DNA from: Fimbriimonadaceae bacterium
GTDB lineage: Bacteria > Armatimonadota > Fimbriimonadia > Fimbriimonadales > Fimbriimonadaceae
NCBI GenBank assembly: GCA_019638775.1
Contig: JAHBTD010000001.1
Coordinates: forward strand, 1-64,000
Direction of reading: 5' to 3'
DNA: 64,000 nt
Positions within the stretch are counted from its first letter, which is position 1; every line of letters begins with the position of its first letter. Positions 43,997 through 63,395 of this stretch are shown one piece after another. The translations under genes were made by a program, and so were the position numbers. The notes beneath the pieces were generated by a model that was not told the origin of the DNA, made no database searches, and saw nothing but the letters and a program-made list of their open reading frames with translations.

Positions 43997-44058
43997 TAAC
44001 CTGCCAATATCTGCATGCAAAGGTTGGACAGGCCAAGGCCTGCCCAACGCGATGGAGC

Positions 44059-45179: not shown

Positions 45180-45222
45180 TATGACAGTTGTCATAGCGCG
45201 CCCTCTGCCTCCTCAACAGACT
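45180..45222 (+). promoter_or_regulatory. Fnr-type operator and -10 of the nitronate monooxygenase gene
   Basis: Palindrome TATGAC-AGTT-GTCATA at 45180-45195, then 21 bp, then CAGACT (45217-45222) as a weak -10. The spacing is that of class II Crp/Fnr promoters (site centred near -41.5), predicting a start near 45229, 35 bp before the TTG of the gene. Confidence 0.65.
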
Positions 45223-45263
45223 TGTCTTGGTGGCCCCGGATAGCTGTGGCCAAGGAATGGGCA

Positions 45264-46706
45264 TTGATATTTCCAAGGATCATTCAGGGTGGCATGGGCA
45301 TCGCAGTTTCGTCTTGGCCCCTCGCTTCAGCTGTTTCCAGAAGAGGCCAGCTCGGGGTCGTTTCCAGCTCTGGATTAGACGCTGTTTTGGCACGTCGGCT
45401 ACAAATGGGTGACCTCGGCGGACACTTACGACATGCGTTCGATCACTTCCCAATCAAGGAGATGGCTGACCGGATTTGGGCTCGTTATTTCATCGAGGGT
45501 GGCAAGTCCCCGTTGGCCGCCTTCAAGTCCAAGCCTCTCCCAGCCATCCGACCTTCGCAGGCTTTGCTTGAGCTGATCATTCTCGCAAACTATGTGGAAG
45601 TGTTCCTCGCCAAGCGCGGACACAATGGGCTGGTCGGGATCAATTTGCTTGAGAAAATTCAACTCCCGACCCTGCCTTCGCTCTACGGCGCGATGCTCGC
45701 CAAAGTTGATTACGTGTTGATGGGGGCTGGAATTCCCCGCGCAATCCCTGCCATCCTCGACCAGCTTTCCCAGCTAAAACCTGTGGAGCTGCCGCTCGAC
45801 GTTGTCGGAGCAGACCAGACCTACTTCACAAAATTTGAGCCTAAAGAGTTTTGTCCAGCCGGGACAACAGAGCTTCCACGCCCTGAATTCCTCGCGATCG
45901 TCTCCTCCTCCGCTCTGGCCTTGACGCTGGCAAGAAAGTGTACGGGCAAGGTGAATGGCTTTGTGGTCGAGGGAAAAACTGCCGGTGGGCACAATGCGCC
46001 CCCGCGTGGCGCCCTCGTGCTTGACGAGGCAGGCGAGCCCGTATATGGACCTCGCGATAACCCCGATCTGGGACAATTCCGAGAGATAGGGTTGCCGTTT
46101 TGGTTGGCGGGATCGTTTGGAAACTCGCTCAAACTGCACGAAGCTGTCGAGACTGGGGCGCAGGGTATTCAGGTCGGCACAGCGTTTGCCTTTTGCAACG
46201 AATCGGGGCTGGATCCAGCGATCAAATCGCGAACCCTTCACCAGAGCCTTGAGCATCGTGCCCGAGTTTTCACCGACCCGCTTGCATCCCCAACGGGCTT
46301 TCCCTTCAAAGTACTGCAATCCGAAGGCACACTATCCGAGGAATCGGTCTACGAAGATAGGGAGCGGATTTGCGATCTGGGATACCTTCGCGAACTCTAC
46401 CAAAAGGAGGATGGGAAAGTGGGATATCGATGCCCAGCAGAGCCGCTCGACGACTACATCAGCAAGGGCGGTGATCCTGCAAAGGCTGTGGGTCGGAAGT
46501 GCGTATGCAATGGGCTTTTTGCGACCATAGGCTTGGGCCAGGTTCGGAAAGAAATACCCGAAGCGGCCCTTGTCACGGCAGGGGACGATGTGCAGAACAT
46601 CGCCCAATTCCTCAAGCCCGGACAGGATTCCTACTCGGCTGACGATGTTATCGACAGTCTCCTTCCCGCCGCTTCGCCAGATGAACCGCCTACTCTGGCT
46701 GTGTAG
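45264..46706 (+). CDS. Nitronate monooxygenase family protein (NMO/NPD-like)
   Basis: The 480-residue product is an FMN-binding TIM barrel: [18 protein letters not shown] at the start, then [43 protein letters not shown] (active-site region) and [19 protein letters not shown] (phosphate loop). Known members oxidise nitronates such as propionate-3-nitronate, releasing nitrite or nitrate. TTG at 45264 is preferred: AAGGA is 7 bp upstream and homology begins right there; a longer TTG start at 45222 would overlap the -10. The operator upstream ties it to the nitrate cluster. Its tail overlaps the convergent reductase by 17 bp. Confidence 0.85.
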
Positions 46707-48873
46707 ATGGAGAGATCTTCACGCATGCCTTCTTGAATTCTGGGATCTTGCTGAGGGGATCATAGGCTCGAATAGTCAGGTTGTTCGCTGCTTTCGGTCC
46801 TGCCCAATGGTAAGGAATGAAGACTGTGTCGGGACGGATCGTTGTCACGACCTTCGCCTTAAGAACGACCTCACCGCGCCGACTCTCAACTCGCATCCAC
46901 TCCCCATCCTTGATCCCATACTCTTCAGCAAGCTGTGGATGAATCTCGACATAGGGATCGGGACACAAGTCCACCAACGCACCGATGCGGCGCGTTTGCG
47001 TACCGCTGAGATAGTGCATCACCACCCGCCCAGTCGTTAGGATCACCGGATATTCCTCGTCCGGCTCTTCGGCACTGGGACGATATGCGGTTGGGTGGAA
47101 ATGAGCTTTACCGTCGGGTGTGTGAAATTTGAGGTCTTCAAATAACCGTGGTGTTCCGGGATGTCCGATCTCCGGGCAAGGCCAAAAGACGCCCATTTCG
47201 TCAACGACGCGCTGATAGGTGATGCCGTAATAGTCGGCAGTACCACCTTTGCTGGCGATGCGAAGTTCGTTAAAGATGTCTTCGGAGGTCTTGAAGTGAC
47301 TGAAGTATTGACCTCGTCCGAGCTTCTCCGCAAGTGTGAGGATGATTTCTGTATCAGCCCTGGCATCCCCAGGAGGATCGACGGCCTTATTGATCTTGAT
47401 GACGCGGCCCTCGGCGCTGGTGCTAGTGCCCTCTTCCTCCTCGTGGAGTGAACCGGCCATGACGATGTCGGCATGGTGAGCTGTCTCGTTCAAGAAAAAG
47501 TCGATGGCGGTGTAGTGCTCCAACTTATCGAGGGCTTCGCGCGTGAAATTGGAGTCCGGCAATGAAACGAGCGGGTTGAAGCAGATGCTGATAAGGGCCT
47601 TAATCTCCCCGGCGTGGATCATCTCCATGATCTCGGGAGCGGGGTGGCCCTTGCCAGGGAGCTCCGGTTCGGGGATTCCCCACACATCAGCGATGTACTT
47701 CCGATGCTCTGGATTGGTGATGTCTCGGTTACCGGGCAGCTGGTCGCACTTATGCCCATGCTCACGTCCGCCTTGTCCATTCCCCTGACCAGTGATCGTT
47801 GCATAGCCGCAGCCGGGCTTACCCAAGCGTCCAGTGGCAAGAACAAGGTTGATGCAAGCGAGGACATTATCGACACCTTTCGTGTGGTGCTCGATCCCGC
47901 GCGCATGCAGCAAGAAAGATGTTTTGGCCTGGCCCCACATTCGGGCGGCAGCGACGATGTCCTCCACATTCACACCGCTGATTCGGCTGGCCTCATCCAA
48001 GCTCATCGCCAAAGCCGTCTGCTTGGTCTCCTCCCAGCCTGAGGTGTAGTTGGAGATGAACTCTTCGTTGGTAAAACCTTCTTCAATCAGGACTCGTAGC
48101 ATTCCAAGCAGAAGCGCCGAATCAGCGCCCGGCCTCACCGGAAGATGGAGTGTGCAGGTTCGCGCGATCGGGGTCACCCGAGGGTCGATCACGATCAGCT
48201 TTGCGCCCTTGTCGCGGGCGCGCCAGACATAATCGGTGGTAATGGGGGAGCATTCGGCTACATTCGTACCGATGCAAAGAATGACCTCGGCGGTTAGGAT
48301 GTCTTCCCAAGAGTTCGCCGCTCGGTCAATGCCAAAAGCTTTTTTGTTTCCTGTCCCCGCGCTCACCATACAAAGCCGGCCATTGTAGTCCAGTTCCTTG
48401 GTTTGAAGAGCAACTCGGGCAAATTTCCCGACCAGATAGCTCTTCTCGTTAGTCAGTGAGACTCCAGAAAGGATAGCGACAGCATCCTTGCCATATTTCG
48501 CCTGGACGCGCTGGATCTCACTCACCGTCGTGGCGTATGCCTCCTCCCATGAAATCGGAACAAATCCCTTGCCTTCCACACGCTTCATCGGGTGCATAAG
48601 GCGGTCAGGGTGACTGCCCTGCATATAGCGCTTGATTCCCTTCGGGCACAGTTTGCCGCGATTAAATGGAAAGTCTTCCCACGGTTCAAAGCCGATCACC
48701 CGGTTATCTTTGACCTTGAGCTGGATACCGCACTGCTGGCCACAGAAGCAACAATGGGTCTTGACAAGCTTGTCCGGTTCGCCCCGCCCAACCCAACCTC
48801 CCGGCGGGTCGTAATTCAGCGTCGGGCCGAACTGCTTCTGTAACTCTTCGATGGTAATCGGCGGGTGGGCCAT
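46690..48873 (-). CDS. Molybdopterin oxidoreductase, assimilatory nitrate reductase-like (NarB/NasA type)
   Basis: The product is 727 residues. The N-terminal 4Fe-4S site is C41-x2-C44-x3-C48 ... C76 ([17 protein letters not shown]). [16 protein letters not shown] supplies the Cys molybdenum ligand seen in NarB/NapA/FdhF, and a C-terminal molydopterin-binding domain has [18 protein letters not shown]. Length and the Cys ligand fit cytoplasmic assimilatory nitrate reductase better than formate dehydrogenase (no selenocysteine codon), but the substrate is inferred from neighbours. No Tat signal. ATG at 48873 is chosen because the Fnr-type operator predicts transcription starting near 48920. Divergent from the NarG-like operon and sharing its operator. 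Confidence 0.82.
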
Positions 48874-48953
48874 ACCCAAATGTTGGCTCTCACACGAGCG
48901 CGCGTCTATGACGCGAATCATGCCTCGGTAACTCCACGAAAAAAGACTCCGAA

Positions 48954-48997
48954 TATGACCGCAGTCATAGCGCACATACGTCTCCACGCCTGAGAAT
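48954..48997 (+). promoter_or_regulatory. Shared Fnr-type operator between the two molybdoenzyme genes
   Basis: Palindrome TATGAC-CGCA-GTCATA at 48954-48969, 22 bp before a good -10, GAGAAT (48992-48997). The predicted start near 49003 lies 38 bp before the NarG-like ATG. The same site lies about 41 bp before a plausible start (48920) for the divergent reductase. Bases after the site (GCGCA) also resemble those after the 45180 site (GCGCG). Confidence 0.7.
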
Positions 48998-49040
48998 CAG
49001 CCTAACGGTGAGAGAAATCTCCCCGTTAAGGTGCAGAAAA

Positions 49041-51485
49041 ATGGCAACGCGACATGCGGTTCCTGGCAGATTTAAGAAGCCCAAACCTGAAGAAGAGGTT
49101 CGAGTTGTACGAACCACCGACAGTCCGAACTGTACGGGAGCTTGCGGCTGGCTTGCCACTGTTATCAATGACGTCATTGTGGATTTGAAACCAGCTGCAG
49201 ACTATCCGTGCCAAGAGTACAACCCCCGAGGTTGCCTGCGTGGAATGTCGATGACGCACCTCATCTACGGGCCGGACCGCATCAAGGCCCCTCTCATCCG
49301 CGATGGCGCTCGTGGAGAGGGGAAATGGCGGACAGTGACGTGGGACGAAGCTCTGGATTACATCGCCGGAAAGATGATCCACATCCGCGATAATTACGGC
49401 CCGGAAAGCATGTTGCTGTTCAATCAAGTGGTCGGTACGGGCTACGTCCAGAAGGGTGCGCAAGTGCGGATGGCGGCTCTTCTTGGTATGTCCTTCGCTA
49501 CCGCCTATGATTTCAATGGCGACATCTCGATGGGCTTTACGCACACGGTGGGTATCGATTGTGTCGAATGCGAAACGAAGAGTTGGGGGCATTGCAAGAC
49601 CGCAATCTTGTGGTCGAGCAACGTTTTCCAAACCCGCATTCCCGACGCCAAATTCCTGACGACCCACGCCAAACAACGCAACAACTGCCAGATCATCAGC
49701 ATTGATCCCCGGTGCAGCCAGACCGCCAAAGGGGCCGATCAATGGCTGCCCATTAACCCCGGAACCGATGCGGCACTCGCCCTTTCGATGTGCCAAGTCG
49801 TGATCGAGAATCAGCACGTCGATTGGGAGTTTGTCAAGAAGTACACCGACTTTGGCACCTTGATCCGCGACGACAACGGGGCCCGTCTTCGTGCCTCTGA
49901 TGTTGGTATGGGAACGGAGGCGGAGTTCATCGTTTGGGATGAAGGCAAAGATGAGCTATTCAAGCTCCCGATGGAATCGTTGAAGCTCCCGGACGACATT
50001 CGATTTGCCTTTCATGGAACTCGCGAAATCAAGTTGAAGGATGGGGGCACGATCAAGGTCACTCCCGTCTATCAACTCCTCGAAGACATCGTAATGCGGC
50101 AGGAGTATTCGCCGGAACGGGTCGCCGAAATCACCGATATCCCCGCTGCAACGATCCGCGACATCGCCATTCGCTACGCCACCGAAAGGCCAAGTTCGAT
50201 CATTATCGGCATGGGGATCAACCACCGACTGCATGGTGATCTCACCATCCGGGCGATTCTCCTTCTCTCGGCCCTGGTTGGGGCACATGGCAAGCCGGGT
50301 GAATCGGTCTCCATCTACTCTGGGCAGCACCACTTTCGGCTGGATGTGTCCAGTTGGTGGTTCCCAGACGGCAAACGGCCGAACGGCGTGCCGATGCATT
50401 ACTTCGTCATGGGCAAACCCACAGAGACGATCAACCCCAAGATCAAGTACCCCAAAGATGGATTTAAAGCGCTCTTTGTCTCGCACGGCAATCCTTTGGT
50501 TACTGAGTTTTCTGGTCCGCTGAAAGAGGCTATTGACAAGCTTGATCTCTTTGTGACCATCGACTTTTCGATGTCGCCGACATGCGAATATTCCGACGTC
50601 GTTTTGCCCGCACCTACGTTCTGGGAGAAAGTAGATTTGGTCGGCACCAGTTGCCACCCCTATCTTCAAATTCAGCAGGAAGTCTTGACTCCCCGATACG
50701 ACAGCCGTACGGAGATGTGGATGGTGCGCGAACTGCTAAAGCGCATCGACCCCAGCCTCAACAAGTACTTCGATCTCAACGAATTTGACGCGATTGAGAT
50801 GATGCTCAAATCGGGTGGCAAAGAGGTTGAGGGGATCACCGTCGAACAGCTTAAAGAGGGTCCGGTGCGGCTGAACGTTCACGACCCCGAATGCGGGCTT
50901 GACGAGCAGTTCCACGAAGACAAGCTCTTCCCGCCCCGAGCCTATCCGTTCCCAGAAGGCGTCCAGCGCGAATTTCTCAAGACGGGCCGCATGGAGTTCT
51001 ATAAGGAGGAGGAGATTTTCCAGAAGGTTGGTGAGAGCGTCCCAATCTTTAAGTGGGCATTCGAGCATCTGCCGGAAGATCAGCAGAGGATGCCGCTTGC
51101 CATCGTGACCCCCCACTCGAAATGGAGAGTCCATTCCACCCACAGCAACAATACGTTCCTGCTCAACCTCAACCGCAAGCCAGTGATCGAGATCAACCCA
51201 CGCGATGCTGCAGCGCGAGGCATCGCCGACGGCGACCAGGTTGAAGTCTTTAACGACAACGGTTCTTACCAACTGTGGGCGCTGATCACTGAATCGATCA
51301 AGCCTGGCGTGGTTTGTGTGGACCACGGTTGGTGGGATCGATATCTCGGTGGGGGCAAGTATCACAGTGTCCATACCCACCAAAAGGTCAAACCGACCCA
51401 CGAGAACTATTATCTCCCTGCCGTGTATGCCCCTGGGCAGCACTGGAAAGACACCCGTGTAGACATCAGGAAGGTGAATGCGTAA
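49041..51485 (+). CDS. NarG-like molybdoenzyme catalytic subunit, type II DMSO-reductase family
   Basis: The 814-residue product resembles NarG in NCTGACGW, YNPRGCLRG and AYDFNGDISMG...TAILWSSNVFQTRIPDAKFL. Asp157 aligns with NarG's Asp molybdenum ligand. C31-x3-C35 and C65 align with FS0 ligands, but the position of NarG's His ligand is Asp27 (DSPNC). It is about 400 residues shorter than NarG and has no Tat signal, so it should act on the cytoplasmic side. With the electron-transfer genes downstream it probably reduces nitrate; other oxyanions are possible. ATG at 49041 has AAGGTG 8 bp upstream. It starts a six-gene operon; the stop overlaps the next ATG (TAATG). Confidence 0.85.
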   Translation: MATRHAVPGRFKKPKPEEEVRVVRTTDSPNCTGACGWLATVINDVIVDLKPAADYPCQEYNPRGCLRGMSMTHLIYGPDRIKAPLIRDGARGEGKWRTVTWDEALDYIAGKMIHIRDNYGPESMLLFNQVVGTGYVQKGAQVRMAALLGMSFATAYDFNGDISMGFTHTVGIDCVECETKSWGHCKTAILWSSNVFQTRIPDAKFLTTHAKQRNNCQIISIDPRCSQTAKGADQWLPINPGTDAALALSMCQVVIENQHVDWEFVKKYTDFGTLIRDDNGARLRASDVGMGTEAEFIVWDEGKDELFKLPMESLKLPDDIRFAFHGTREIKLKDGGTIKVTPVYQLLEDIVMRQEYSPERVAEITDIPAATIRDIAIRYATERPSSIIIGMGINHRLHGDLTIRAILLLSALVGAHGKPGESVSIYSGQHHFRLDVSSWWFPDGKRPNGVPMHYFVMGKPTETINPKIKYPKDGFKALFVSHGNPLVTEFSGPLKEAIDKLDLFVTIDFSMSPTCEYSDVVLPAPTFWEKVDLVGTSCHPYLQIQQEVLTPRYDSRTEMWMVRELLKRIDPSLNKYFDLNEFDAIEMMLKSGGKEVEGITVEQLKEGPVRLNVHDPECGLDEQFHEDKLFPPRAYPFPEGVQREFLKTGRMEFYKEEEIFQKVGESVPIFKWAFEHLPEDQQRMPLAIVTPHSKWRVHSTHSNNTFLLNLNRKPVIEINPRDAAARGIADGDQVEVFNDNGSYQLWALITESIKPGVVCVDHGWWDRYLGGGKYHSVHTHQKVKPTHENYYLPAVYAPGQHWKDTRVDIRKVNA

Positions 51486-52204
51486 TGGCACGAATGTCCA
51501 TGCTGGTCGACCTCACGCGGTGCATTGGTTGCGATGCTTGTACGATGGCATGCAAGCAGGAGAACGGCACTCCAATGGATACGTTTTTTGCCCGTGTGCT
51601 GAACGTCGAAGTTGGTGAGTATCCGAATGTAAAACGGGTCTACATTCCCGTCCTTTGCAACCACTGTGAGGATGCTCCTTGCCTGAAAGCCTGTCCCAAC
51701 AAAGCGATCGTTCGTCGTCAGGACGGCATCGTCTTGATAGACCAAGATCGTTGTCGAGGGACCGGAGCATGCGTCTCTTCATGCCCGTACGGAAACATCA
51801 TTTTGTCGCAGGTCGACGGTTGGTATCTGGACGGTGAAGAGCCCTATGAAGAGGAGTACGTCAAGCCGAGACTGAAGCCAAACGTCGCCCGAAAGTGCAC
51901 TTACTGTGCGCATCGAGTGGATGAGGGTTTGAAGCCCGCTTGTGTGGTGGCCTGCCCAACAACAGCCCGCATCTTCGGCGATTTAGATGATCCTGAAAGT
52001 GACGTTTCTACTTACATCGTTGAGCAGGAGCGCTTGACTGGACGGAAGCCGTTTCATCTGCTTCCCCAAGCCGGGACCAAACCAGCCGGATCGTATCTCG
52101 GCACGATGGCTGACCAAGAGGTGAAGACCACGGGTCAGGCGGCAAGCCCGGAAAACCCACTCAAGGCCACTGTTGAAGCACATGCCGACGGAGGAAATCT
52201 GTAA
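51485..52204 (+). CDS. Four-cluster ferredoxin subunit (DmsB/NrfC/NarH-like)
   Basis: The 239-residue product has four cysteine groups: CIGCDACTMAC (13-23), CNHCEDAPCLKAC, CRGTGACVSSC and CTYCAHRVDEGLKPACVVAC. This is the ligand set for four iron-sulfur clusters in the electron-transfer subunit of molybdoenzymes. It is about half the length of NarH and closer to DmsB/NrfC. It passes electrons from the membrane subunit to the NarG-like protein. ATG shares one base with the upstream stop and the TAA shares one base with the next ATG, implying fixed stoichiometry. Confidence 0.92.
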   Translation: MARMSMLVDLTRCIGCDACTMACKQENGTPMDTFFARVLNVEVGEYPNVKRVYIPVLCNHCEDAPCLKACPNKAIVRRQDGIVLIDQDRCRGTGACVSSCPYGNIILSQVDGWYLDGEEPYEEEYVKPRLKPNVARKCTYCAHRVDEGLKPACVVACPTTARIFGDLDDPESDVSTYIVEQERLTGRKPFHLLPQAGTKPAGSYLGTMADQEVKTTGQAASPENPLKATVEAHADGGNL

Positions 52205-53349
52205 TGTTCAGATGGCTGTCTTTCGTCATTCTCTGTAGCGTCGTGACCCTTGGCCTCGCTCAAACTTCCGACCTTCAAAAGACCGCTTCCGAGCATAAGG
52301 ATGTCTTCTCAACTTCGAATTGTATGGGTTGCCATGGACAGAACGGAATGGGCGGTCTCGGCCCTCCGATCGTGAAAGGATCGCTTGAATATGAGCATTT
52401 CTTGAAGGTTGTGCGAGAAGGCAAGGGAATGATGCCTGCAACCTCCAAGGCCGATCTTTCTGACGATAAACTGCGTGCGATCTACGACGAACTGCAGTCG
52501 AAAGCATGGCTGCCCCACGAGATCCCGATCGCGTATAAGGTGGGCCAGTTTCTATCGACGAAGAACGTTTCTCGCATCTTCCTCGGAGTGTTCCTATTCG
52601 CCGCAATCTTCGCTATCCGTGGCTTGGGATTGTGGTTCAGAGCTGCTGGCTTTGCTCAACTTTGGCCACGGCTGCTGAAGATGGGGCTGTTCAAATCGTT
52701 GGGTATCGCCATGAAGGCATTCATCGTGGATGGCTTCTTGGTGAGTTCGCTCTGGAAAAAAAGCAAACACCGCTGGCTAATGCACGGACTGATCCTTTAC
52801 GGTTTCTGCGGGCTGCTTGCCGCCGACATCCTGATGGCGATCTACAACCCAACGCGCAGCCAACTGCCCCTCACCAATCCTCTAAAGCTCCTGCCCGTTC
52901 TCTCTGGCATTGCCGTGTTGATGGGTGTCAGCTTCGTCATGGTCCGCTATCGCAAGGACAACTACATCGACAACGGCCTGACTCTCGGGAAGGACTTCCT
53001 TTTCGTGAATCTGCTCTTCCACACGGTCGTCAGCGGGTTCCTGACAGTGGTCCTAAAGAGATTCGGCATCCACGACTGGGTGATGACGATCTACCTCTAT
53101 CATCTGGCCTCAATCACTTTGCTGATCGCCACGGCACCGTTTACGCGCTTCCAGCACGTTTGGGTCGTGCCGATTATGGTCGCTCTCACACGATTGACGG
53201 ATGCTGTTGCCGAATCGGGCGTCGATATCGGATTCGAGCGGGAACCGTCGCCCGGACGGCATCACAAGTCTGAGCGGATCGCCGCCAACGTCATGGAGCA
53301 GCTTGGACCGGAGTACGACGGTCCCATACGCCTCCGCTACTACCCCTAG
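52204..53349 (+). CDS. Cytochrome c / NarI-like membrane cytochrome b fusion
   Basis: The 381-residue product starts with a signal peptide (residues 1-19). A mono-heme cytochrome c domain follows with CMGCH (40-44) and a Met ligand candidate in GKGMMPAT (about 75). The rest is a membrane domain with about six helices: FLGVFLFAAIFAIRGLG, HRWLMHGLILYGFCGLLAADILM, FVNLLFHTVVSGFL, IYLYHLASITLLIATAPF. Paired His residues suit two b hemes as in NarI-type quinol oxidases. Covalent joining of a periplasmic cytochrome c to a NarI-like anchor would let quinol and cytochrome electrons meet in one subunit. Confidence 0.82.
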   Translation: MFRWLSFVILCSVVTLGLAQTSDLQKTASEHKDVFSTSNCMGCHGQNGMGGLGPPIVKGSLEYEHFLKVVREGKGMMPATSKADLSDDKLRAIYDELQSKAWLPHEIPIAYKVGQFLSTKNVSRIFLGVFLFAAIFAIRGLGLWFRAAGFAQLWPRLLKMGLFKSLGIAMKAFIVDGFLVSSLWKKSKHRWLMHGLILYGFCGLLAADILMAIYNPTRSQLPLTNPLKLLPVLSGIAVLMGVSFVMVRYRKDNYIDNGLTLGKDFLFVNLLFHTVVSGFLTVVLKRFGIHDWVMTIYLYHLASITLLIATAPFTRFQHVWVVPIMVALTRLTDAVAESGVDIGFEREPSPGRHHKSERIAANVMEQLGPEYDGPIRLRYYP

Positions 53350-53357
53350 GTGCCCTT

Positions 53358-53861
53358 ATGAGTCACAACAATTCGAACCCTCAAGATGACACTGTCAAGA
53401 ACAAGGAGAGACGAAAATTCCTTGGGATCGCCGTCGGGGTCATCAACATCGCCCTGATTGGTGCGATTGTCGGGCCTGTACTCGGTTTCGTCGCTTCTCC
53501 TTTGAAGCGACGCAAAAAAGGAGAGTGGGTGGCTGTCCTTGATGACAGCCACCTAGCCCCCGGAGACGTCAAGGATGTCAGCTTCACGATGCGGATTCGC
53601 GACGGTTTTCAGGACGTGGATCGGCAATATACAGTCTTTCTACGCAAGTCGGACGACGGCGTAGTATGCATCGACCCGGCCTGTACACACCTCGGCTGTC
53701 GAGTGAAGTACCAATCTGATCAACACCGGTTCCTTTGCCCATGCCATGGCGGCGTTTTCAACCAAGATGGCGACGTCGTTTCCGGTCCTCCGCCCAGGCC
53801 GCTTGACAAGCATCCGGTGAAGGTTGAGGGCGGGAAAATCTGGATCTATAAGGAGGTTTAG
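53358..53861 (+). CDS. Rieske iron-sulfur protein
   Basis: The 167-residue product has an N-terminal membrane anchor (residues 22-45, following basic KERRK). A Rieske fold follows with CTHLGC (C109, H111, C114) and CPCHGG (C127, H130), the four 2Fe-2S ligands plus disulfide cysteines, then the GPPPRPL loop. It lies 8 bp after the cytochrome c/b fusion and before the cytochrome b gene, together forming the core of a bc-type quinol-oxidising complex. Confidence 0.94.
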   Translation: MSHNNSNPQDDTVKNKERRKFLGIAVGVINIALIGAIVGPVLGFVASPLKRRKKGEWVAVLDDSHLAPGDVKDVSFTMRIRDGFQDVDRQYTVFLRKSDDGVVCIDPACTHLGCRVKYQSDQHRFLCPCHGGVFNQDGDVVSGPPPRPLDKHPVKVEGGKIWIYKEV

Positions 53862-53864
53862 GCA

Positions 53865-55118: not shown

Positions 55119-55585
55119 AACGCCATAAAGTACTGCAACCATTTTCGCGCGACCACAACGTCGGGCTGGTTCTCGCGCGTCATCTCATCCAGAACCCCAA
55201 ACAAGAGACTCTCGCCAAGTGCGTGCAGGTGTGGGACGATGAGATGAAGAACCACTTCGAAGAAGAGGAGTTGTTGCTTGTTCCGATGGCAAGCATCGCA
55301 ATGTCGGCAAGACTTTTCAAGGAGCATGAAGATATTCGGGAGACGATTGAATCGGCTCGTGCGGGAACGCTTCCCGAAGCGAAGATACGCGATCTTGGCA
55401 AAAAGTTGCGGGAGCACATCCGTTGGGAAGAGAACGAACTCTTTCCTGCGGTTGAAAGAAGCGGGGCGATAGAGTCGATCTTGGAAGCAACGGATGCGAT
55501 GGAGGCCCGTCGAAGTAACTCCCCCCACAGCCCGCGTCGTGGCGAGCTAGTGAGCAGAGGCCGTAACAATGCCGACCACCTCTGA
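55115..55585 (+). CDS. Hemerythrin-domain protein
   Basis: The 156-residue product is a four-helix HHE protein: SRDHNVGLVLARHL, KNHFEEEELLLVP, LFKEHEDIRETI and LREHIRWEENELFPAVE give the His/Glu set for a di-iron site. Such proteins bind oxygen or nitric oxide, or help repair iron centres under nitrosative stress. It is the last gene of the nitrate operon (ATGA overlap with cytochrome b), in keeping with NO made during nitrate or nitrite reduction. The C-terminal 30 residues are a basic, disordered tail. Confidence 0.9.
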   Translation: MKRHKVLQPFSRDHNVGLVLARHLIQNPKQETLAKCVQVWDDEMKNHFEEEELLLVPMASIAMSARLFKEHEDIRETIESARAGTLPEAKIRDLGKKLREHIRWEENELFPAVERSGAIESILEATDAMEARRSNSPHSPRRGELVSRGRNNADHL

Positions 55586-55635
55586 CCTGCCATCAAGCTT
55601 GAGGCGACAAAGCATTCAGGCAAACTCCTGAATCG

Positions 55636-55660
55636 GCCCCCACTCAACAGGGGGCTTTTT
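55636..55660 (+). terminator. Rho-independent terminator of the NarG-like operon
   Basis: Stem GCCCCC/GGGGGC (55636-55641 with 55650-55655), 8-base loop, then TTTTT. It lies 51 bp after the hemerythrin stop. Confidence 0.88.
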
Positions 55661-55788
55661 CATGTCTAAATCCTACTTAGGTCTGAGACTAAGCGCTGTC
55701 CATCTCCTCGCCGTCCCGACAGCGATGCCTCCCCCTTAGCCTCCCCCGTAGGAGGGTGGAGGTTGATGATCCCGCAATGGCCCGCACA

Positions 55789-56526
55789 TTACTTCAGAGC
55801 AAGCTTGACAGCAGCAAAGATCAGAACGCATGCAAGGGCACGCCGCAACGTTGTATTGGGGATAGCAAACGCGCCTACGTACGAGCCCACCAGCGATCCA
55901 CACAGTCCAGCAAAGGCGAAGACCCAAATCTGATTCGGAAGCGTTGCTCCCTGAGAAATGCGACCCGCTAACCCGATCGCTGAATTTGCCACGATAAAGA
56001 TCGCTGAGCTTGCAGAGGTTTCCTTTGCCGTTGCCCAACGATGAAGGACAAGAATTGGGCTGAGAAAGATTCCTCCCCCCACACCGACCATGCCCGACAG
56101 CAACCCGATCCCTGCGCCAGCCGCAATACCGACAGGAACGCTAGACGGTCTTGTCGGCAAACCGTCATCATGCTTGCGAATGAACAACAGACGAACGCCC
56201 GCAATCAGTAGGGTAAGGCCGACGAGTGTAAAGTAAGCCGTGTCCGTAAGCTTGATGATTGAACCCACAAATGCAAGAGGCAAAGAACCGATCAGAAACG
56301 GCCAAGTAAGTCGCCAGTTAAAATGCTTCGCCAGGCTGTAGAGCACGAACGAGGTCCCCGCTACAACCAGGTTGATGGTGAGTGCGATTACCGCGATTTG
56401 CTTTGGTAAGAGGGGCGAGATCGCCAGAAGGCCGAGATAACCAGAAGCCCCGCCGTGCCCCACCATCGAATAGATCATCGCAATGACAGCGATGCCGGCA
56501 ACAAACCAAAGAGAAAGATCAGCCAT
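55789..56526 (-). CDS. TauE/SafE-family membrane transporter
   Basis: The 245-residue product has eight hydrophobic segments in two similar halves. The first begins GIAVIAMIYSMVGHGGASGYL, the second GIGLLSGMVGVGGGIFLSPIL, the GxxxGxGGG repeat marking TauE/SafE (sulfite or organosulfonate export). ATG at 56526 has GGAGAGG 5-11 bp upstream and overlaps the MoaE-MoeB fusion by 8 bp; the longer frame to 56616 runs into that gene. As last gene of the Moco operon it may move sulfite, sulfur compounds or another anion linked to cofactor sulfur chemistry; substrate unknown. Confidence 0.87.
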   Translation of the reverse strand: MADLSLWFVAGIAVIAMIYSMVGHGGASGYLGLLAISPLLPKQIAVIALTINLVVAGTSFVLYSLAKHFNWRLTWPFLIGSLPLAFVGSIIKLTDTAYFTLVGLTLLIAGVRLLFIRKHDDGLPTRPSSVPVGIAAGAGIGLLSGMVGVGGGIFLSPILVLHRWATAKETSASSAIFIVANSAIGLAGRISQGATLPNQIWVFAFAGLCGSLVGSYVGAFAIPNTTLRRALACVLIFAAVKLALK

Positions 56527-58057
56527 GACCTCTCCTTCCTGCTGTTTCGCTTGAGGATGTTCTGGACGACGTGTGTGGAGGGGTGGAGGCCAGCTGGCAA
56601 TTTCCTTCAACACCACCCGCTAGGGACCGCACGTTCGTAAAGCCCCGTTCACGCAACATTTCAACGGCTCGATAGCTCCGCAACCCACTCTTGCAGACCG
56701 TTAGATAGGAGCGATTGGGATTGAGCCCTTCAATGCCTTCCTCAAATTTTGATAGAGGGAAATGCCGCCAATCATCGACGCCGAAGTCCAAACGCGGACG
56801 CTCTTCATCCAATTCTCGAACGTCCAATATCACTAAGTTTAAGGATTCTTCCTTGCTCAATTCGGACATGTCCACTTCGAGTGATAGTCGTGTGTGTCCT
56901 CCACATCCACAAACCGGACACTCAGGATTCCTCGGACGATCCAGGTGATGCACAGCATATGTCTGCAAATCCATCAGCAAGAGGCTACGGCTGAGTATGT
57001 CGGGAAAGCCGAGCAGATATTTGATCGCCTCATTGGCTTGCAGCGCTCCGAACACTCCCGGCACCACGCCGAGCACCCCAATCTCGGCACATGTGCCTAC
57101 ACAACCGTCTGTCGGTGCTTCGGGCCATAGACAGCTTAAACATCCTGCATTCGAGGATGGATCGTAGAGGTGAATCTGGCCCTCGAATCGGTGGATGCTG
57201 GCTTGAACGAGCGGTTTTGCGTGTCGAACCGCGAGATCGTTCAGCAAGAACTTCGTGCGGAAATTGTCGGTGCAATCGAGAACCAGGTCGTAGCCCTTGA
57301 GTAATGCCTCGGCGTTGCTTGGGGTCAGCCTGCACACATGTGCGTTAGCCTCGATAAATGGATTCTGTCGAGCGATGCGGGTGGCAGCGAGTTCAGCCTT
57401 TGGTTTACCCACGTCCGCAGCACCGAAGAGTGTCTGACGGTGGAGGTTTGTGGCATCGACCCGGTCAAAGTCACAAACGCCGATCGTCCCTACTCCTGCC
57501 GCTGCGAGATAGGGCAACGCCGCACAGCCCAATCCCCCCACCCCAACGACCAGCACACGGGCGTCACGTAGGTGTTGCTGCCCGACATCTCCAACTTCTT
57601 CAAGTCGGATTTGACGTCCGTAAAAAGAAGCCTCGTTGACAGGTGCGGCCGAGGGCGCCGCGTCAGCGCCTACCCAGCCCGAATCGCCATCAGCATAATG
57701 CTCTTTCTTCCAAATCGGGACCCGGCGCTTTAACGCATCCAAAATCCATTCGCAGGCCTCAAACGCCTCTCTGCGATGCGCCGCCGCTACCCCGATCCAA
57801 ACGGCAGTTTCACCAATCTCCAATCTGCCAACACGGTGAATAGCCTCAACTGAAAGCAAGCCGAACCTCTCAGCTGCCTCCAAAAGGAGTTGCCTACCCT
57901 CGGCTTCAGCAAGGTCTTGGGGGGCCTCATATTCTAGCGCGAGAACTTCACGGCCCTGGTGATGGTCGCGAATCTTTCCCTCGAAACTGACGAAACCGCC
58001 TGCCCCCGCACAATGCATCACGACGGGTACAAGCGGTTCAGAAGTGATCCTGAACAT
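56519..58057 (-). CDS. MoaE-MoeB-rhodanese fusion
   Basis: The 512-residue product joins three Moco enzymes. Residues 1-135 are MoaE, the large subunit of molybdopterin synthase (FEGKIRDHHQG, KRRVPIWKKEHYADG with the active Lys). Residues 140-390 are MoeB, the adenylyltransferase that activates MoaD (GVGGLGCAALPYLAAAG at about 172, DFDRVDATNLHRQTLFG, and Cys pairs CLSC and CPVC for zinc). Residues 400-500 are a rhodanese (ILDVRE, CKSGLRS with the persulfide Cys). One chain could load sulfur on MoaD and use it. ATG follows the MoaD stop by 2 bp (a GTG at 58060 overlaps it). Confidence 0.92.
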   Translation of the reverse strand: MFRITSEPLVPVVMHCAGAGGFVSFEGKIRDHHQGREVLALEYEAPQDLAEAEGRQLLLEAAERFGLLSVEAIHRVGRLEIGETAVWIGVAAAHRREAFEACEWILDALKRRVPIWKKEHYADGDSGWVGADAAPSAAPVNEASFYGRQIRLEEVGDVGQQHLRDARVLVVGVGGLGCAALPYLAAAGVGTIGVCDFDRVDATNLHRQTLFGAADVGKPKAELAATRIARQNPFIEANAHVCRLTPSNAEALLKGYDLVLDCTDNFRTKFLLNDLAVRHAKPLVQASIHRFEGQIHLYDPSSNAGCLSCLWPEAPTDGCVGTCAEIGVLGVVPGVFGALQANEAIKYLLGFPDILSRSLLLMDLQTYAVHHLDRPRNPECPVCGCGGHTRLSLEVDMSELSKEESLNLVILDVRELDEERPRLDFGVDDWRHFPLSKFEEGIEGLNPNRSYLTVCKSGLRSYRAVEMLRERGFTNVRSLAGGVEGNCQLASTPPHTSSRTSSSETAGRRGHG

Positions 58058-58059
58058 CA

Positions 58060-58308
58060 CTACCCACCCGCCACTGGTGGGATGAGGACGACACAGTCAC
58101 CATCGGCAAGTCCTTGGTTCAAGTCTCCTAGCTTGCCGTTAACGCCCGCCCGAACCATATCGGGGCTTAAAGTAAATCCGTGCTTCACTCGGAGCTCGTT
58201 GTATAGCTCTTTGACATTCGTGACGTGGGCGCTGACTGTTTCGTGGCTAGCTCCGCGCTGCTCGCGAAAGATAGCGAAATATTGCACATCAACTTGAATC
58301 TCTTTCAT
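58060..58308 (-). CDS. moaD: Molybdopterin synthase sulfur carrier MoaD
   Basis: The 82-residue product has a ubiquitin-like fold with the terminal Gly-Gly (PPVAGG) that carries the thiocarboxylate, VQYFAIFREQRG at the start and GVNGKLGDLNQGLADGDCV. It donates sulfur to MoaE. ATG shares one base with the moeA stop (TGATG) and has GGAGG upstream. It directly precedes the MoaE-MoeB-rhodanese gene. Confidence 0.93.
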   Translation of the reverse strand: MKEIQVDVQYFAIFREQRGASHETVSAHVTNVKELYNELRVKHGFTLSPDMVRAGVNGKLGDLNQGLADGDCVVLIPPVAGG

Positions 58309-59555
58309 CACTTCGACCTCCATGGCGTATGCACAAAACTGACAATGCCGCCAGCCTCAATACAATCGCTTTCCGGCGGCAACTTGATCCATGAGTTGGC
58401 GAAGGCAAGGCCACCGAGCATGTGAGAGCCACGCCTTTCGAGTGGTTCTAAAACCCACTCACGATCTCGCCAAACCGCGATCGTAGGCACAAACTCCAGA
58501 CGACCCTTCTTCTTGCGGAGCGGCTTTGCCGTTCGGCCTTCAAACTCTTCGATCAGCGGATCGAGCCCTTGGCAAGATCGTAAAAATGGCTCCACGAGCA
58601 CGGCAAACGTAACGAGAGCCGACATTGGATTTCCGGGGAGTCCGAAGACCGGAACGGTCCGTCCATCCTCCCGAAAAAGGCCAAAGTAGAACGGCTTTCC
58701 GGGTTTGATGGCAACGCCCCAAAACTCAGTCTGGATGCCAGCCTCTTTCATCGCCGATTTCACGGTGTCGTATTGGCCCACCGAAACCCCGCCGGACGTA
58801 ATCACAACATCGTTGCGCATAACCAAGCCACCCAGCGCCGTAACCGTCGGGGCTTCGACATCGGGCGAGTGCACACGTTCAAAGCTTTCGATCCCTAACT
58901 CCCTCAGGGCCGCTTCGATGCCGTAGCTGTTGGATTCATAAATCTGCGTTCCGTGGAGTTCGTATCCAGGTGGCGTCAGCTCGTTTCCAGTAAAGAGCAT
59001 TCCAACTTTCGGTCTGCGCCAGACCCGTATATCCCTTTTTCCCGAAGACGCGGCCATGGAGGCTCCAGCGGGATTCAGCAATGTGTTCGCAGGCAGCAGC
59101 TCTGTCCCAACTTCGTACTCCTCACCGGCGAACCGAATATGCTGGCCGGCACATGCACTTCCCGAAAGGCGAACCTGCGTCCCCTCCATGACGGCGTCCT
59201 CTTGCATCACAATGGCGCTCGTCCGTTCCGGAACACGTGCCCCCGTCAACACATAAGCGGCGACGCCCTCAGCGATGGGGGCTTCGGGTATGGGATCACC
59301 TGCGGCAACGGTTTTCCCAAGATCGAGCATCAAACTCCCCGACTCTTCGAGCTTCATACGATCCGCTTCACTTATCGCAAAACCATCTACGGCTGAGTTG
59401 TCGAATCGCGGCATCGGATGAACGCTAAACACTGGCTCCGACAAGACTCTTCCGATCGCTTGCGACAAGCCCACGCCCTCCGTTCCGAACGTGCGAGCAC
59501 GGGACAGGATTGCGGCAAGCGCCTCTTCGTAGCTTAGGAGTCGGTCCTTAACCAT
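58308..59555 (-). CDS. moeA: Molybdopterin molybdenumtransferase MoeA
   Basis: The 415-residue product, usual length for MoeA, inserts molybdate into adenylylated molybdopterin. Visible are MPRFDNSAVDGFAI (N-terminal substrate site), GARVPERTSAIVMQED, a central MoCF domain with VGMLFTGNEL, IYESNSYGI, VITSGGVSVGQYD and FGLPGNPMSALVTF, and a beta-barrel C-terminus. ATG at 59555 overlaps the previous gene by 8 bp; the longer frame to 59618 is not homologous. Confidence 0.95.
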   Translation of the reverse strand: MVKDRLLSYEEALAAILSRARTFGTEGVGLSQAIGRVLSEPVFSVHPMPRFDNSAVDGFAISEADRMKLEESGSLMLDLGKTVAAGDPIPEAPIAEGVAAYVLTGARVPERTSAIVMQEDAVMEGTQVRLSGSACAGQHIRFAGEEYEVGTELLPANTLLNPAGASMAASSGKRDIRVWRRPKVGMLFTGNELTPPGYELHGTQIYESNSYGIEAALRELGIESFERVHSPDVEAPTVTALGGLVMRNDVVITSGGVSVGQYDTVKSAMKEAGIQTEFWGVAIKPGKPFYFGLFREDGRTVPVFGLPGNPMSALVTFAVLVEPFLRSCQGLDPLIEEFEGRTAKPLRKKKGRLEFVPTIAVWRDREWVLEPLERRGSHMLGGLAFANSWIKLPPESDCIEAGGIVSFVHTPWRSK

Positions 59556-60459
59556 GGGACGCACCTTCTCGCATAGAGAGGTAATGCTTGACGTACGGGA
59601 ACAGACTGTCGAGTGCATCGCGGCATGCTCCCGGTGAACCTGGAAGAGCCAAGATCAACGTGCATCCTCGCTGGCCCGCAACGGTACGGCTGAACATCGC
59701 GAACGGAGTGCGCTGTCGGCTATAGCTTTGAAAATGCTCCTCAATCCCTTCTATGCGCTTGTCCAGTAAGGGCAAGATCGCTTCTGGAGTGAGGTCTCGG
59801 GGGCCGATGCCCGTTCCACCCGTGAGAAGGATGAGGTCGATCCCGTCGTCGTCAGCGAGTTTGCGTACTTGGTTTTGCAGCGCTTCAGGATCGTCCGGCA
59901 GTATTACAAGTCCAACGCCTTGCGCACCGAACTCCTCAAGTCCGGCTTTCAAGATCGCGCCGGATGTATCCTCCCGTTCGCCCTTGCTTGCAGAATCGGA
60001 AACGACAATGACAGCGGAGTGAAACGCCCCTGCAAGTCCATGGGCGAAGTTCGACTTCCCTCCCGTCTTCTCCACGAGCCGGACGCTATCAATCTCCATC
60101 GTATCGTCGAGCATCTTAAGCATGTCGTAAATGTTGAGAACTGCCGCCGAAGCCCCGGTCAACGCCTCCATTTCGACACCAGTTTTATAAATCGCCCGCA
60201 CACTGACCGTGACCTCAATGCGATCCTCTTTAATTTCGAGATCCACACCAATTCCGTCGACAGGAATCGGATGGCAATAAGGAAGGATGAGGGGAGTGTT
60301 CTTCACGGCCTGAATGGCGGCGACCTTCGAGACGGGGATGGGATCGCCCTTGGGGACCTTTCCTTGGCGAATAATGGTGATCGTCTCTGGGGAGACGGTG
60401 ATGACGGCTTTCGCGGTAGCCGTTCTCATTGTTGAAACCTTTGCGGATACGTCTTTCAT
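59548..60459 (-). CDS. moaCB: MoaC-MogA/MoaB fusion
   Basis: The 303-residue product is bifunctional. Residues 1-150 are MoaC, which makes cyclic pyranopterin phosphate (PLILPYCHPIPVDGIGVDLEI, VEMEALTGASAAVLNIYDMLK, VRLVEKTGGKSNF). Residues 155-303 are a MogA/MoaB domain, which adenylylates molybdopterin (VIVVSDSASKGEREDTSG, DLILLTGGTGIGPRDLTPEAI, LPGSPGACRDAL). ATG at 60459 follows the moaA stop by 1 bp. Such fusions are known in several phyla and make the two pathway ends equimolar. Confidence 0.94.
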   Translation of the reverse strand: MKDVSAKVSTMRTATAKAVITVSPETITIIRQGKVPKGDPIPVSKVAAIQAVKNTPLILPYCHPIPVDGIGVDLEIKEDRIEVTVSVRAIYKTGVEMEALTGASAAVLNIYDMLKMLDDTMEIDSVRLVEKTGGKSNFAHGLAGAFHSAVIVVSDSASKGEREDTSGAILKAGLEEFGAQGVGLVILPDDPEALQNQVRKLADDDGIDLILLTGGTGIGPRDLTPEAILPLLDKRIEGIEEHFQSYSRQRTPFAMFSRTVAGQRGCTLILALPGSPGACRDALDSLFPYVKHYLSMREGASHG

Positions 60460-60460
60460 A

Positions 60461-61483
60461 TCAACCCCCGATCTGCACCATCGACCGATTCTCCAGTCTT
60501 TCAAGAAGACCCATTGGTGGATGCTCTTTCCACTTGCCCATCACACACTCACGAATAATCTCAGTCAATGCGTCATCTGAAGCGCCCGACCGCATCGCAT
60601 CGCGAAGGTTCGTCTCCGACGTTGAAAACAGGCAGTTCTTCATTTGCCCGTCGGCAGTCAATCGGACACGATTGCACCCACTGCAAAAGTTGTGGGTCAT
60701 CGACGTGATGAAGCCAATATTGCCTTCTCCATTCTCGATAGAAAATTCGGTCGCCACGGCTCCTGGGCAGGCGTCGATCGGCGCTAATCGATAGGCCGTC
60801 TCGATATCTCGCTTCATTTCGGCGAAGGGATACAGCCCGCCCGCTGACCATCCGTTCGCTTGGAACGGCATGAATTCGATAAAGCGCACCTGGATCAGCA
60901 TGGTCCGAGCCAGCTCCACAAAGTCGAGAATCTCGTCTTCGTTCACGCCCTTCATTACAACCATGTTCAACTTTACGGGTTCAAACCCAACTTCGAGCGC
61001 AGCTTGAATCCCGTCCAAAACTTGAGACAAACCATCGCGCCGGCTGATCGAAAAAAAACGGTCTGGACGCAATGTGTCGAGACTGATGTTGACTCCCGAG
61101 ATGCCAGCACCACGATACAAGGCAGCATGTTTTGCGAGGGCGATCCCATTCGTCGTGAGCAGGAGATCCTTGATGCCCTCGATCTTTGCGAGTGACCGAA
61201 CAAGGTCGGGCAAGTCTTTGCGAACCGTTGGCTCTCCGCCAGTCAATCGAACCTTTGAGACCCCACACTCGGCAAAAATCGTTGTAAGACGAGCGATCTC
61301 TTCAAAACTCAGAATCTCTTCCCGGCTCTTGCACACCACACCTTCCTCGGGCATGCAGTACACACACCTCAGGTTGCAGCGATCAGTGACAGACACCCTA
61401 AGGTAGGTATGCACACGGCCAAACCGATCCGTAAGCGGAGCTCGCCGGGTGTGCAAATCTTTCGGTAACGCGTGTGCGGTCAT
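60461..61483 (-). CDS. moaA: GTP 3',8-cyclase MoaA
   Basis: The 340-residue radical-SAM enzyme has C36-x3-C40-x2-C43 (CNLRCVYC), LTGGEPTVRKDL, ITSMTHNFCSGCNRVRLTADG with the C-terminal cluster cysteines, and a terminal Gly-Gly (QIGG) required for activity. It opens Moco synthesis by cyclising GTP. ATG at 61483 is chosen; the frame to 61615 would run through the divergent promoter. It is first of a six-gene minus-strand operon and lies 61 bp from an Fnr-type operator, so Moco supply should rise with the reductases. Confidence 0.95.
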   Translation of the reverse strand: MTAHALPKDLHTRRAPLTDRFGRVHTYLRVSVTDRCNLRCVYCMPEEGVVCKSREEILSFEEIARLTTIFAECGVSKVRLTGGEPTVRKDLPDLVRSLAKIEGIKDLLLTTNGIALAKHAALYRGAGISGVNISLDTLRPDRFFSISRRDGLSQVLDGIQAALEVGFEPVKLNMVVMKGVNEDEILDFVELARTMLIQVRFIEFMPFQANGWSAGGLYPFAEMKRDIETAYRLAPIDACPGAVATEFSIENGEGNIGFITSMTHNFCSGCNRVRLTADGQMKNCLFSTSETNLRDAMRSGASDDALTEIIRECVMGKWKEHPPMGLLERLENRSMVQIGG

Positions 61484-61543
61484 TTTCCTAAACAGGACCT
61501 GAATGGGTGCTCCATAAATATCCGCCAAAAGATTCGGGCTGGC

Positions 61544-61586
61544 TATGACAGGAATCATAGATAGAAAAATCCAGGGCGCTAAGAAT
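61544..61586 (+). promoter_or_regulatory. Fnr-type operator between moaA and narK
   Basis: Palindrome TATGAC-AGGA-ATCATA (61544-61559), then 21 bp, then AAGAAT (61581-61586) as -10 on the plus strand. This predicts a start at about 61593, next to the narK ATG (61594), so the message would be almost leaderless. On the minus strand GATATT (61522-61517) lies at the matching place for moaA, with a start near 61510. Confidence 0.65.
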
Positions 61587-61593
61587 GTGAGGC

Positions 61594-63069
61594 ATGAGCG
61601 GCAATCGCACTGCAAACCGCATCCTTTTTATCAACACACTTGCGTTCACCATCTGCTTTGCGGTGTGGACGATGTATGGCGTTCTGATCACCTTCCTCGT
61701 CGATAATCGCCTGTTGCTGCTCGACAAGGCTCAGATCGGCTGGCTGATCGGTATCCCCATCCTCACTGGCTCGCTCATGCGCCTTCCGATGGGAATTCTT
61801 ACCGACCGTTATGGAGGCAAGCCGGTCTATATCGGCGTCATGCTTTTCGCTGCAATCTCGGCTTACTTGACGAGTTTTGCGAACTCATTTCTCGGGTTTA
61901 TGATCGGTGGCTTGGCGTTCGGTATGAGCGGCGCCGCGTTTGCAGTTGGGATTGCTTATTCCTCGCTGTGGTTTCCGAAAGAAAAGCAAGGTACCGCACT
62001 TGGAATCTTTGGAATGGGCAATGCCGGAGCAGCCTTGACGACTCTTGCCGCGCCCCACATGCTCAAAGTCTTCACCGACCAAGGCAAGAACCTTGATGGA
62101 TGGAGGACGCTGCCTCAAGTCTACGGATACGTTTTGCTCGCCATGACAGTGATTTTTGCGTTCACAACGGTGAACAAGCTGGACGAAAGGGCGGGCACTC
62201 GCACTATCATTCAAATGCTCAAGCCGCTCTCCGACATCCGCGTTTGGAGATTTGGCCTCTACTACTTCCTGGTTTTTGGCGCGTTCGTCGCGCTGGCTCA
62301 GTGGCTTGTTCCGTACTATCTCAACGTTTACGGCATGACTCTAGCGATGGCTGGCCTGCTCGCTTCTGTTTTCAGCCTGCCATCGGGCGTGATCCGAGCG
62401 TTAGGCGGCTGGGCCTCCGACAAGTTTGGAGCCCGGGCCACGATGTATTGGGTGCTTAGTTTGCTGGCAATCACCTTCTTTCTGCTTGTCGCGCCGAGAA
62501 TGGATATCCGTTCACCGGGAGAAGGCATAATGGCGGATCGTGCGGGAACGGTAACCGAGGTTAGCAAGACCCACGTCGTGGTCGATGACAACATGTATGC
62601 ACTGAAGGAACCCCCGGCAACGCCAATCAGTTCGGCGAAGCAAGGCACCATCATCTGGCCGACTTTTGAATCCTGGCAAGAACCAGCTGTATCGGTTGGG
62701 CAACAAGTGAAGAAGAAGGAGCTTGTCGCGAGAGGCGTGACACAGGTCTTTTTTCAAGCCAACGTTTGGGTCTTCACCGTACTCGTGTTCCTCGCTGGAA
62801 TTGTGATGGGCATTGGAAAGGCCGCCGTTTACAAACATATTCCGGAATACTTCCCCCACGATGTTGGTGTCGTTGGCGGCATCGTTGGTGTGCTTGGTGG
62901 GCTAGGTGGATTCTTCTGTCCAATCTTGTTCGGATACTTCCTTAAGCTCACGGGTTTGTGGACGACATGCTGGCTTTTCCTGGGCTTACTCAGCGTCATC
63001 AGCTTGCTGTGGATGCACTTCACTATTTTGAGGATGGCGAAGAATCAAAACATCGAACGCCAAGGATAG
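61594..63069 (+). CDS. narK: NarK-type nitrate/nitrite transporter with inserted soluble domain
   Basis: The 491-residue product is a 12-helix MFS carrier with LMRLPMGILTDRYGGKPVY (loop 2-3 motif), FGMSGAAFAVGIAYSSLWFPKEKQGTALGIFGMGNAGAA (nitrate signature) and GIVGVLGGLGGFFCPILFGY (second signature). It exchanges or imports nitrate and nitrite. Residues about 305-385, between membrane helices, form an extra soluble segment (GTVTEVSKTHVVVDDN ... AVSVGQQVKKKELVARGV) resembling a biotinyl/lipoyl-type hammerhead; NarK normally has a short loop there. Divergent from moaA and under the 61544 operator. Confidence 0.9.
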   Translation: MSGNRTANRILFINTLAFTICFAVWTMYGVLITFLVDNRLLLLDKAQIGWLIGIPILTGSLMRLPMGILTDRYGGKPVYIGVMLFAAISAYLTSFANSFLGFMIGGLAFGMSGAAFAVGIAYSSLWFPKEKQGTALGIFGMGNAGAALTTLAAPHMLKVFTDQGKNLDGWRTLPQVYGYVLLAMTVIFAFTTVNKLDERAGTRTIIQMLKPLSDIRVWRFGLYYFLVFGAFVALAQWLVPYYLNVYGMTLAMAGLLASVFSLPSGVIRALGGWASDKFGARATMYWVLSLLAITFFLLVAPRMDIRSPGEGIMADRAGTVTEVSKTHVVVDDNMYALKEPPATPISSAKQGTIIWPTFESWQEPAVSVGQQVKKKELVARGVTQVFFQANVWVFTVLVFLAGIVMGIGKAAVYKHIPEYFPHDVGVVGGIVGVLGGLGGFFCPILFGYFLKLTGLWTTCWLFLGLLSVISLLWMHFTILRMAKNQNIERQG

Positions 63070-63297
63070 GAGCTAGGTCGAAACCGAACGCAATCGGGAA
63101 TCCTTCCTCGATTGGGGAAGCAGGCCATGAGTGGGTCTTTGCGACCGGCCGCGAGTTCACACAAGATACGCTGGCTTCCAACAGTCAAGAGGGTTTCAAT
63201 GGATACTTTTTTGAATAGTATTAAGCCTTAGACTTCCGGTCGTCTTTGAATATCTTATTGGGTCAATCGGATCATTATCCCTTTAGAATTCTTGAAA

Positions 63298-63340
63298 CAT
63301 GACAGCCGTCATGGCTGCAAGATGCGCACGGGCTGAAACT
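63298..63340 (+). promoter_or_regulatory. Fnr-type operator of the second nitrate transporter
   Basis: Palindrome CATGAC-AGCC-GTCATG (63298-63313), then 21 bp, then GAAACT (63335-63340) as -10. The predicted start near 63347 is followed at once by AGGAGG (63348-63353). Confidence 0.6.
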
Positions 63341-63359
63341 TCATTGCAGGAGGTTTGCC

Positions 63360-63395
63360 GTGGACTCTGGCCACGCCCAAACCCAAGCTATATGA
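63360..63395 (+). CDS. Eleven-codon leader ORF before the second transporter
   Basis: GTG with AGGAGG 6 bp upstream opens an 11-residue frame (VDSGHAQTQAI) whose TGA overlaps the transporter ATG (ATGA). The strong ribosome site belongs to this ORF and not to the transporter, whose own ATG has none, so translation would be coupled. Confidence 0.45.
   Translation: MDSGHAQTQAI

Follow-up and report, generated by a model that had tools for sequence, protein, structure and literature searches.

At the class II promoters of CRP and FNR in E. coli, the regulator site is centred at -41.5, has the geometry TxTGA-N6-TCAxA and accompanies a weak -35 box. The Armatimonadota are a little-studied phylum, with members found in anammox and wastewater communities (PMC6828613, PMC9909701). 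For regulators of the Crp/Fnr type, the HcpR1 operator of delta-proteobacteria has been described as wyTTGACnnnnGTCAArw, and those of DNR and NnrR as TTGATnnnnATCAA and ctTTGcgnnnncgCAAag (PMC1274295). Rodionov and colleagues also linked two regulator residues to bases of the half-site, R180 to G3 and E181 to A6 (PMC1274295). A literature search found no description of a TATGAC-N4-GTCATA operator, the form considered here.

The stretch of DNA analysed, hereafter the window, covers the opening 64 kb of a contig of 1.33 Mb, which belongs to a genome of 4.3 Mb and 126 contigs. The putative operators that it contains, the -10-like hexamers that follow them and the surrounding genes are collected in Table 1. 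A preliminary description had reported four palindromes with their hexamers 21 or 22 bp downstream (CAGACT, GAGAAT, AAGAAT and GAAACT); all four are real and the hexamers lie as described, while the set was incomplete, a fifth site (operator 2) having been overlooked. This additional site departs from the consensus at two positions, or at one when Y/R is allowed at the inner position. Two exact copies were observed, against 0.00 expected in shuffles, and one unrelated match with two mismatches occurs at 31111.

Table 1. Putative operators, genes and regulators of the cluster (contig positions; gap, distance between palindrome and -10 box)
Feature	Position	Strand	Details
Operator 1	45180..45195	+	TATGACAGTTGTCATA, exact TATGAC-N4-GTCATA; upstream of nitronate monooxygenase-like gene; -10 CAGACT at 45217-45222, gap 21 bp; predicted transcription start ~45229
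Nitronate monooxygenase-like gene	45264..46706	+	Pfam NMO 4e-14
nasC-like molybdoenzyme	46690..48873	-	Assimilatory nitrate reductase/formate dehydrogenase-like
Operator 2	48907..48922	-	CATGATTCGCGTCATA on minus strand; nasC-like gene; -10 CAACAT, gap 21
Operator 3	48954..48969	+	TATGACCGCAGTCATA, exact; type II molybdoenzyme operon; -10 GAGAAT, gap 22
Operon	49041..55585	+	DMSO reductase type II-like molybdoenzyme, four-cluster Fe-S subunit, cytochrome c/NarI-like fusion, Rieske protein, cytochrome b, hemerythrin
Molybdenum cofactor genes	55789..61483	-	TauE/SafE-like, MoaE-ThiF-rhodanese, MoeA, MoaC-MogA, MoaA
Operator 4, two-way	61544..61559	.	TATGACAGGAATCATA, one mismatch; -10 AAGAAT, gap 21 (narK1 side); -10 GATATT, gap 21 (moaA side)
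narK1, NarK-type transporter 1	61594..63069	+	TIGR00886 2e-56
Operator 5	63298..63313	+	CATGACAGCCGTCATG, two mismatches; -10 GAAACT, gap 21
narK2, NarK/NarU-type transporter 2	63392..64000, on to contig 64720	+	TIGR00886 3e-91; beyond it a cysteine-synthase-like gene
Site at nnrS	65734		Beyond window
CRP1	67.2-67.9 kb		Crp/Fnr-type, behind nnrS
Site between mobA and AhpD-like gene	68497		Beyond window; genes named from sequence
Site at Rieske and Fe-S protein genes	71997		Beyond window, where NarI-like cytochrome and cupin genes also lie
Site at porin gene	72052		Alginate-export family porin, beyond window
CRP2	73.4-74.1 kb		Crp/Fnr-type, beside porin gene

The genome scan proposed in the preliminary description was run, and the sites proved to be clustered and not randomly spread. 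Nine matches with at most one mismatch were found genome-wide (four in the reversed control), seven of which lie in a single 27-kb cluster that extends beyond the window end (45180, 48954, 61544, 65734, 68497, 71997 and 72052; 45.2-72.1 kb), the site at 65734 having one mismatch with Y/R allowed at the inner position. The eighth match (C61:3422) falls within a 23S rRNA and was rejected as a site, and the ninth (C10:715), which overlaps an ORF start on a small contig, was set aside. Matches with two mismatches number 62 genome-wide against 57 in the reversed control, a background level at which they were rejected as evidence; for this reason the match at 63298 would not suffice alone, and this candidate depends on where it lies, on its -10 box and on the equivalent narK2 sites in relatives.

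The comparison with relatives took in another 59 loci, each at most 20 kb long. Sites precede narK1, narK2, nnrS, the nasC-like gene, the type II molybdoenzyme, moaA, the Fe-S/Rieske pair, the porin, mobA/AhpD and sometimes the regulator itself, and the same promoters carry them though the gene order is scrambled. In other relatives, further regulon genes encode a multihaem cytochrome, ResB, a truncated globin, NrfB- and NapC-like cytochromes and a hemerythrin. A contig of Armatimonadetes bacterium 55-13, with a regulator 60% identical in the same gene setting, contains six sites with at most two mismatches in 16.9 kb, where 0.25 would be expected. Since some of the 20-kb loci had been selected for exact sites, 29 loci of 3.7 kb, picked by the regulator alone, were used for an unbiased census. 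Of all perfect 6-bp inverted repeats with gaps of 2 to 8, TATGAC with gap 4 occurs most often there; 19 loci carry a site, and the 26 sites in total compare with 0.035 in shuffles.

A single base, an A, sets the operator apart from those of CRP, FNR/DNR and HcpR. In 1.23 Mb of related loci, a set partly picked by exact sites, 64 TATGAC and nine TATGAT palindromes were counted, and no palindrome had C, G or T as its second base. In the same set TTTGAC-N4-GTCAAA is absent (0 versus 64 TATGAC), so the earlier proposal that the half-site is nearest to those of HcpR-like regulators is not supported, the discriminating base being A and not T. With HcpR1 regulons the system shares the Crp/Fnr fold, the N4-spacer palindrome and the inner TGAC/GTCA; it differs in the discriminating base, T in HcpR1, and in its genes, which concern transport, molybdoenzymes, cofactor synthesis and NnrS. 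DNR and NnrR regulons resemble it in their nitrogen-oxide gene content, and NnrR regulons include nnrS, which here shares an operon with CRP1; they are unlike it in operator sequence and in phylum, and TTTGAT-N4-ATCAAA does not occur in the related loci. The half-site had been described earlier as distinct from those of E. coli FNR and CRP; TTTGAT and TGTGAC palindromes both number zero in these loci. With CRP sites the geometry, TATGA-N6-TCATA, is held in common, as are the -41.5 centre and the weak -35 box of CRP/FNR class II promoters in general, whereas the half-site is TATGA and not TGTGA or TTTGA, residues for cAMP and Fe-S are missing and many mRNAs are predicted to be leaderless.

Promoter anatomy was examined in 64 non-redundant one-way sites; apart from the palindrome, their main conserved feature is a downstream -10 box, nAnAAT, at a gap of 21 bp. 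Counting boxes that score at least 3 of 4, NANAAT is found at gap 21 in 39/64 promoters (shuffle mean 2.8, maximum 11 in 2000 rounds) and in six on the upstream side; with gap 22 allowed the figure is 52/64, or 50/62 when the own genome is left out. The spacing is that of a class II Crp/Fnr-type promoter, with the operator near -41.5 and the -10 box 21 bp away. T at -12 is rare (4/39). In a census of 155 oriented sites, made with no selection on the -10 box, 26 have an in-frame ATG or GTG 41.5 bp away from the centre of the palindrome and 29 have one at 42.5 bp, compared with 1 to 8 for each other distance; this spacing puts the operator near -41.5 without recourse to the -10 box. Among 101 regulon promoters with a -10 box in related loci (L051-L107), 44 have the start codon on the predicted +1 or one base after; the pattern suggests that many regulon mRNAs are leaderless. 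In the own genome this arrangement is seen for the nasC-like gene (ATG on the predicted +1), narK1 (ATG one base after) and mobA. Other phyla are known to have leaderless genes (PMC3160421, PMC12340547). Genes that lack the palindrome also show a -10-to-start signal, in weaker form.

These promoters bear on the sense of the regulation, which we take to be activation. A repressor that binds the same operators, covering the -35 region until released by a signal, would be expected to give part of the same pattern: the sites overlap the -35 position, and a G directly follows the palindrome in 72% of cases, on the promoter side only, at -33, where it may be the remnant of a -35 box (TAG-like). Yet the distance to the -10 box stays at 21-22 bp, a constraint that class II activation requires and repression does not, and most promoters lack a good TTGACA at 16-18 bp (at least four matches in only 6/64), which makes repression improbable. 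These sequence features lend good support to class II activation.

No Crp-type HTH gene could be placed in the window, in line with the earlier statement that no regulator gene lies there; two, CRP1 and CRP2, lie in the cluster near the extra sites, 3 and 9 kb past the window end. Both carry a cNMP_binding-fold sensor domain and HTH_Crp_2, each over its cut-off, which assigns them to the Crp/Fnr superfamily. They belong to two separate clades (supports 90/73 and 95/92), and a recognition helix TT[VT]E[TS]xIR is common to nearly all close homologues. With respect to CRP-type proteins, R180 is replaced by V or T, E181 and R185 are kept and the 184 position is Ile; the loss of R180 fits the loss of G3, and Ile may select A at the discriminating base. 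An E. coli-type CRP would have the cAMP residues E72 and R82 and read TGTGA through R180; here the E72 position is not Glu, so that the cAMP glutamate is absent, in addition to the V/T at R180. FNR is defined by N-terminal [4Fe-4S] cysteines and the half-site TTGAT; CRP1 has three cysteines in all and CRP2 two, too few for an FNR-type cluster. A plasmid search for near relatives of the regulator returned only Crp/Fnr proteins 29-33% identical.

Across 251 genomes of the phylum, 46 contain the regulator (E <= 1e-30), 56 an exact palindrome and 35 both, so that the genomes with both, regulator only, palindrome only and neither number 35/11/21/184 (Fisher p = 7e-19); within the family alone the counts are 29/9/2/20 (p = 4e-7), both p-values overstating the certainty because related genomes are not independent. 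In seven of the 11 genomes with a regulator and no exact operator, TATGAT-type forms occur in the fetched loci. Genomes with CRP1 alone at the threshold used (e.g. G165, G099 and G191) keep the operator, as do G061 and G169 with a CRP2-type regulator alone, and each clade is therefore probably enough to use it. Three genomes of another family, f34, have exact palindromes, for which only weak regulator homologues were found; another regulator may use the same operator there. One exact palindrome of this family lies near a NapC-like gene.

The link between operator and regulator is thus one of co-occurrence, and it points to CRP1 and CRP2 as the likely binders. An HcpR-, FNR- or DNR-type protein encoded elsewhere in the genome might be the reader instead, given that the inner TGAC-N4-GTCA is also found in HcpR1 operators (PMC1274295) and that, of three genes well over the cut-off for the Crp-type HTH, one stands outside the cluster, on contig C9, with a weak one at C1:776789. 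The C9 protein was rejected as binder on account of its CRP-type SRET helix, the homologues of CRP1 and CRP2 track the operator across the phylum with one recognition helix in common, and the TTTGAC and TGTGAC palindromes are missing where TATGAC is abundant; this explanation is accordingly even less credible than repression. On contig C9, which might be foreign to this assembly, the SRET-helix regulator gene stands beside a VacJ/MlaA-like gene. A chance or repeat-derived motif with no regulatory role, to which the background level of two-mismatch matches would conform, can practically be dismissed in view of the conservation at orthologous promoters, the fixed -10 spacing and the co-occurrence with the regulator.

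The proposal that the sites define one regulon, with Crp/Fnr-type operators near -41.5, thus finds strong support in the clustering of the sites, the linked regulators, the recurrence of the same promoters in relatives and the fixed distances to the -10 box and the start codon. Comparison of sequences establishes the candidate operators, their clustering, the linked regulators and both spacings. Very probably, the palindromes are operators of a Crp/Fnr-type regulon of nitrate-use genes under class II activation by the cluster's CRP1 and CRP2. A homodimer of either protein would bind TATGAC-N4-GTCATA with its centre about 41.5 bp before the transcript start and, at promoters without a good -35 box, would recruit RNA polymerase as a class II activator. 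The genes turned on would be those for nitrate/nitrite transport, the two molybdoenzymes, molybdenum-cofactor synthesis, NnrS, electron transfer and the porin, as well as the nnrS-crp1 operon itself. The signal may be nitrate, nitrite or NO, and the linkage to nnrS suggests NO or nitrite.

A broader reading, on which the balance stands even, is that of a new Crp/Fnr operator class. Two ancient paralogues, linked to NnrS and to the porin respectively, would use a common helix, with Ile at the position of CRP Gly184/FNR Ser212 reading A at the discriminating base; through them two different signals would enter a single nitrogen-oxide regulon, class II and often leaderless, that extends across an Armatimonadota order and into other families. 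The locus would provide the Armatimonadota with a transcription regulon whose operator and promoter spacing are defined and for which two regulators are proposed, and with a direct test of nitrogen-oxide sensing. It also gives a rule by which the genomes of the group can be scanned (palindrome, 21 bp, nAnAAT, 6-7 bp, start codon), and the known Crp/Fnr base-to-residue code may grow by one base.

Regarding the genes, nitrate as substrate is suggested by gene content, for which the NarK transporters and the cofactor genes argue. Neither molybdoenzyme passes the curated nitrate reductase models: the nasC-like protein has NasC as its best NCBIfam model (831 bits, under the cut-off of 1100), and the type II enzyme is below all cut-offs. 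The solved structures nearest to the latter, 5e7o/4ydd, which we take to be perchlorate reductase, carry only the annotation DMSO reductase family type II. The function of both molybdoenzymes may still be nitrate reduction. The genes at 55789..61483 were named by reading ORF sequences, and the block is also present in relatives. For the nitronate monooxygenase-like gene, the TTG at 45264 is proposed as start, because the ORF start at 45222 lies upstream of the predicted transcript start; the proposal draws on the sequence and on one relative.

The respiratory operon at 49041-55118, with its molybdoenzyme, four-cluster Fe-S subunit, cytochrome c/NarI-like fusion, Rieske protein and cytochrome b, is unusual and is kept in many relatives. 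Its type II molybdoenzyme (49041-51485) carries TTDSPNCTGAC, the NarG equivalent of which is THGVNCTGSC, and Asp appears to take the place of the His ligand of the FS0 cluster. At 63349-63395 a Shine-Dalgarno-like GGAGG is followed by a GTG-started frame of 11 codons whose TGA overlaps the narK2 ATG (ATGA), possibly a leader peptide with translational coupling. On its other side the nitrate cluster adjoins an RND-type heavy-metal efflux pair (CusA/CusB-like, 38847-44116), weaker homologues of which also stand beside the cluster in some relatives (L059, L082 and L109).
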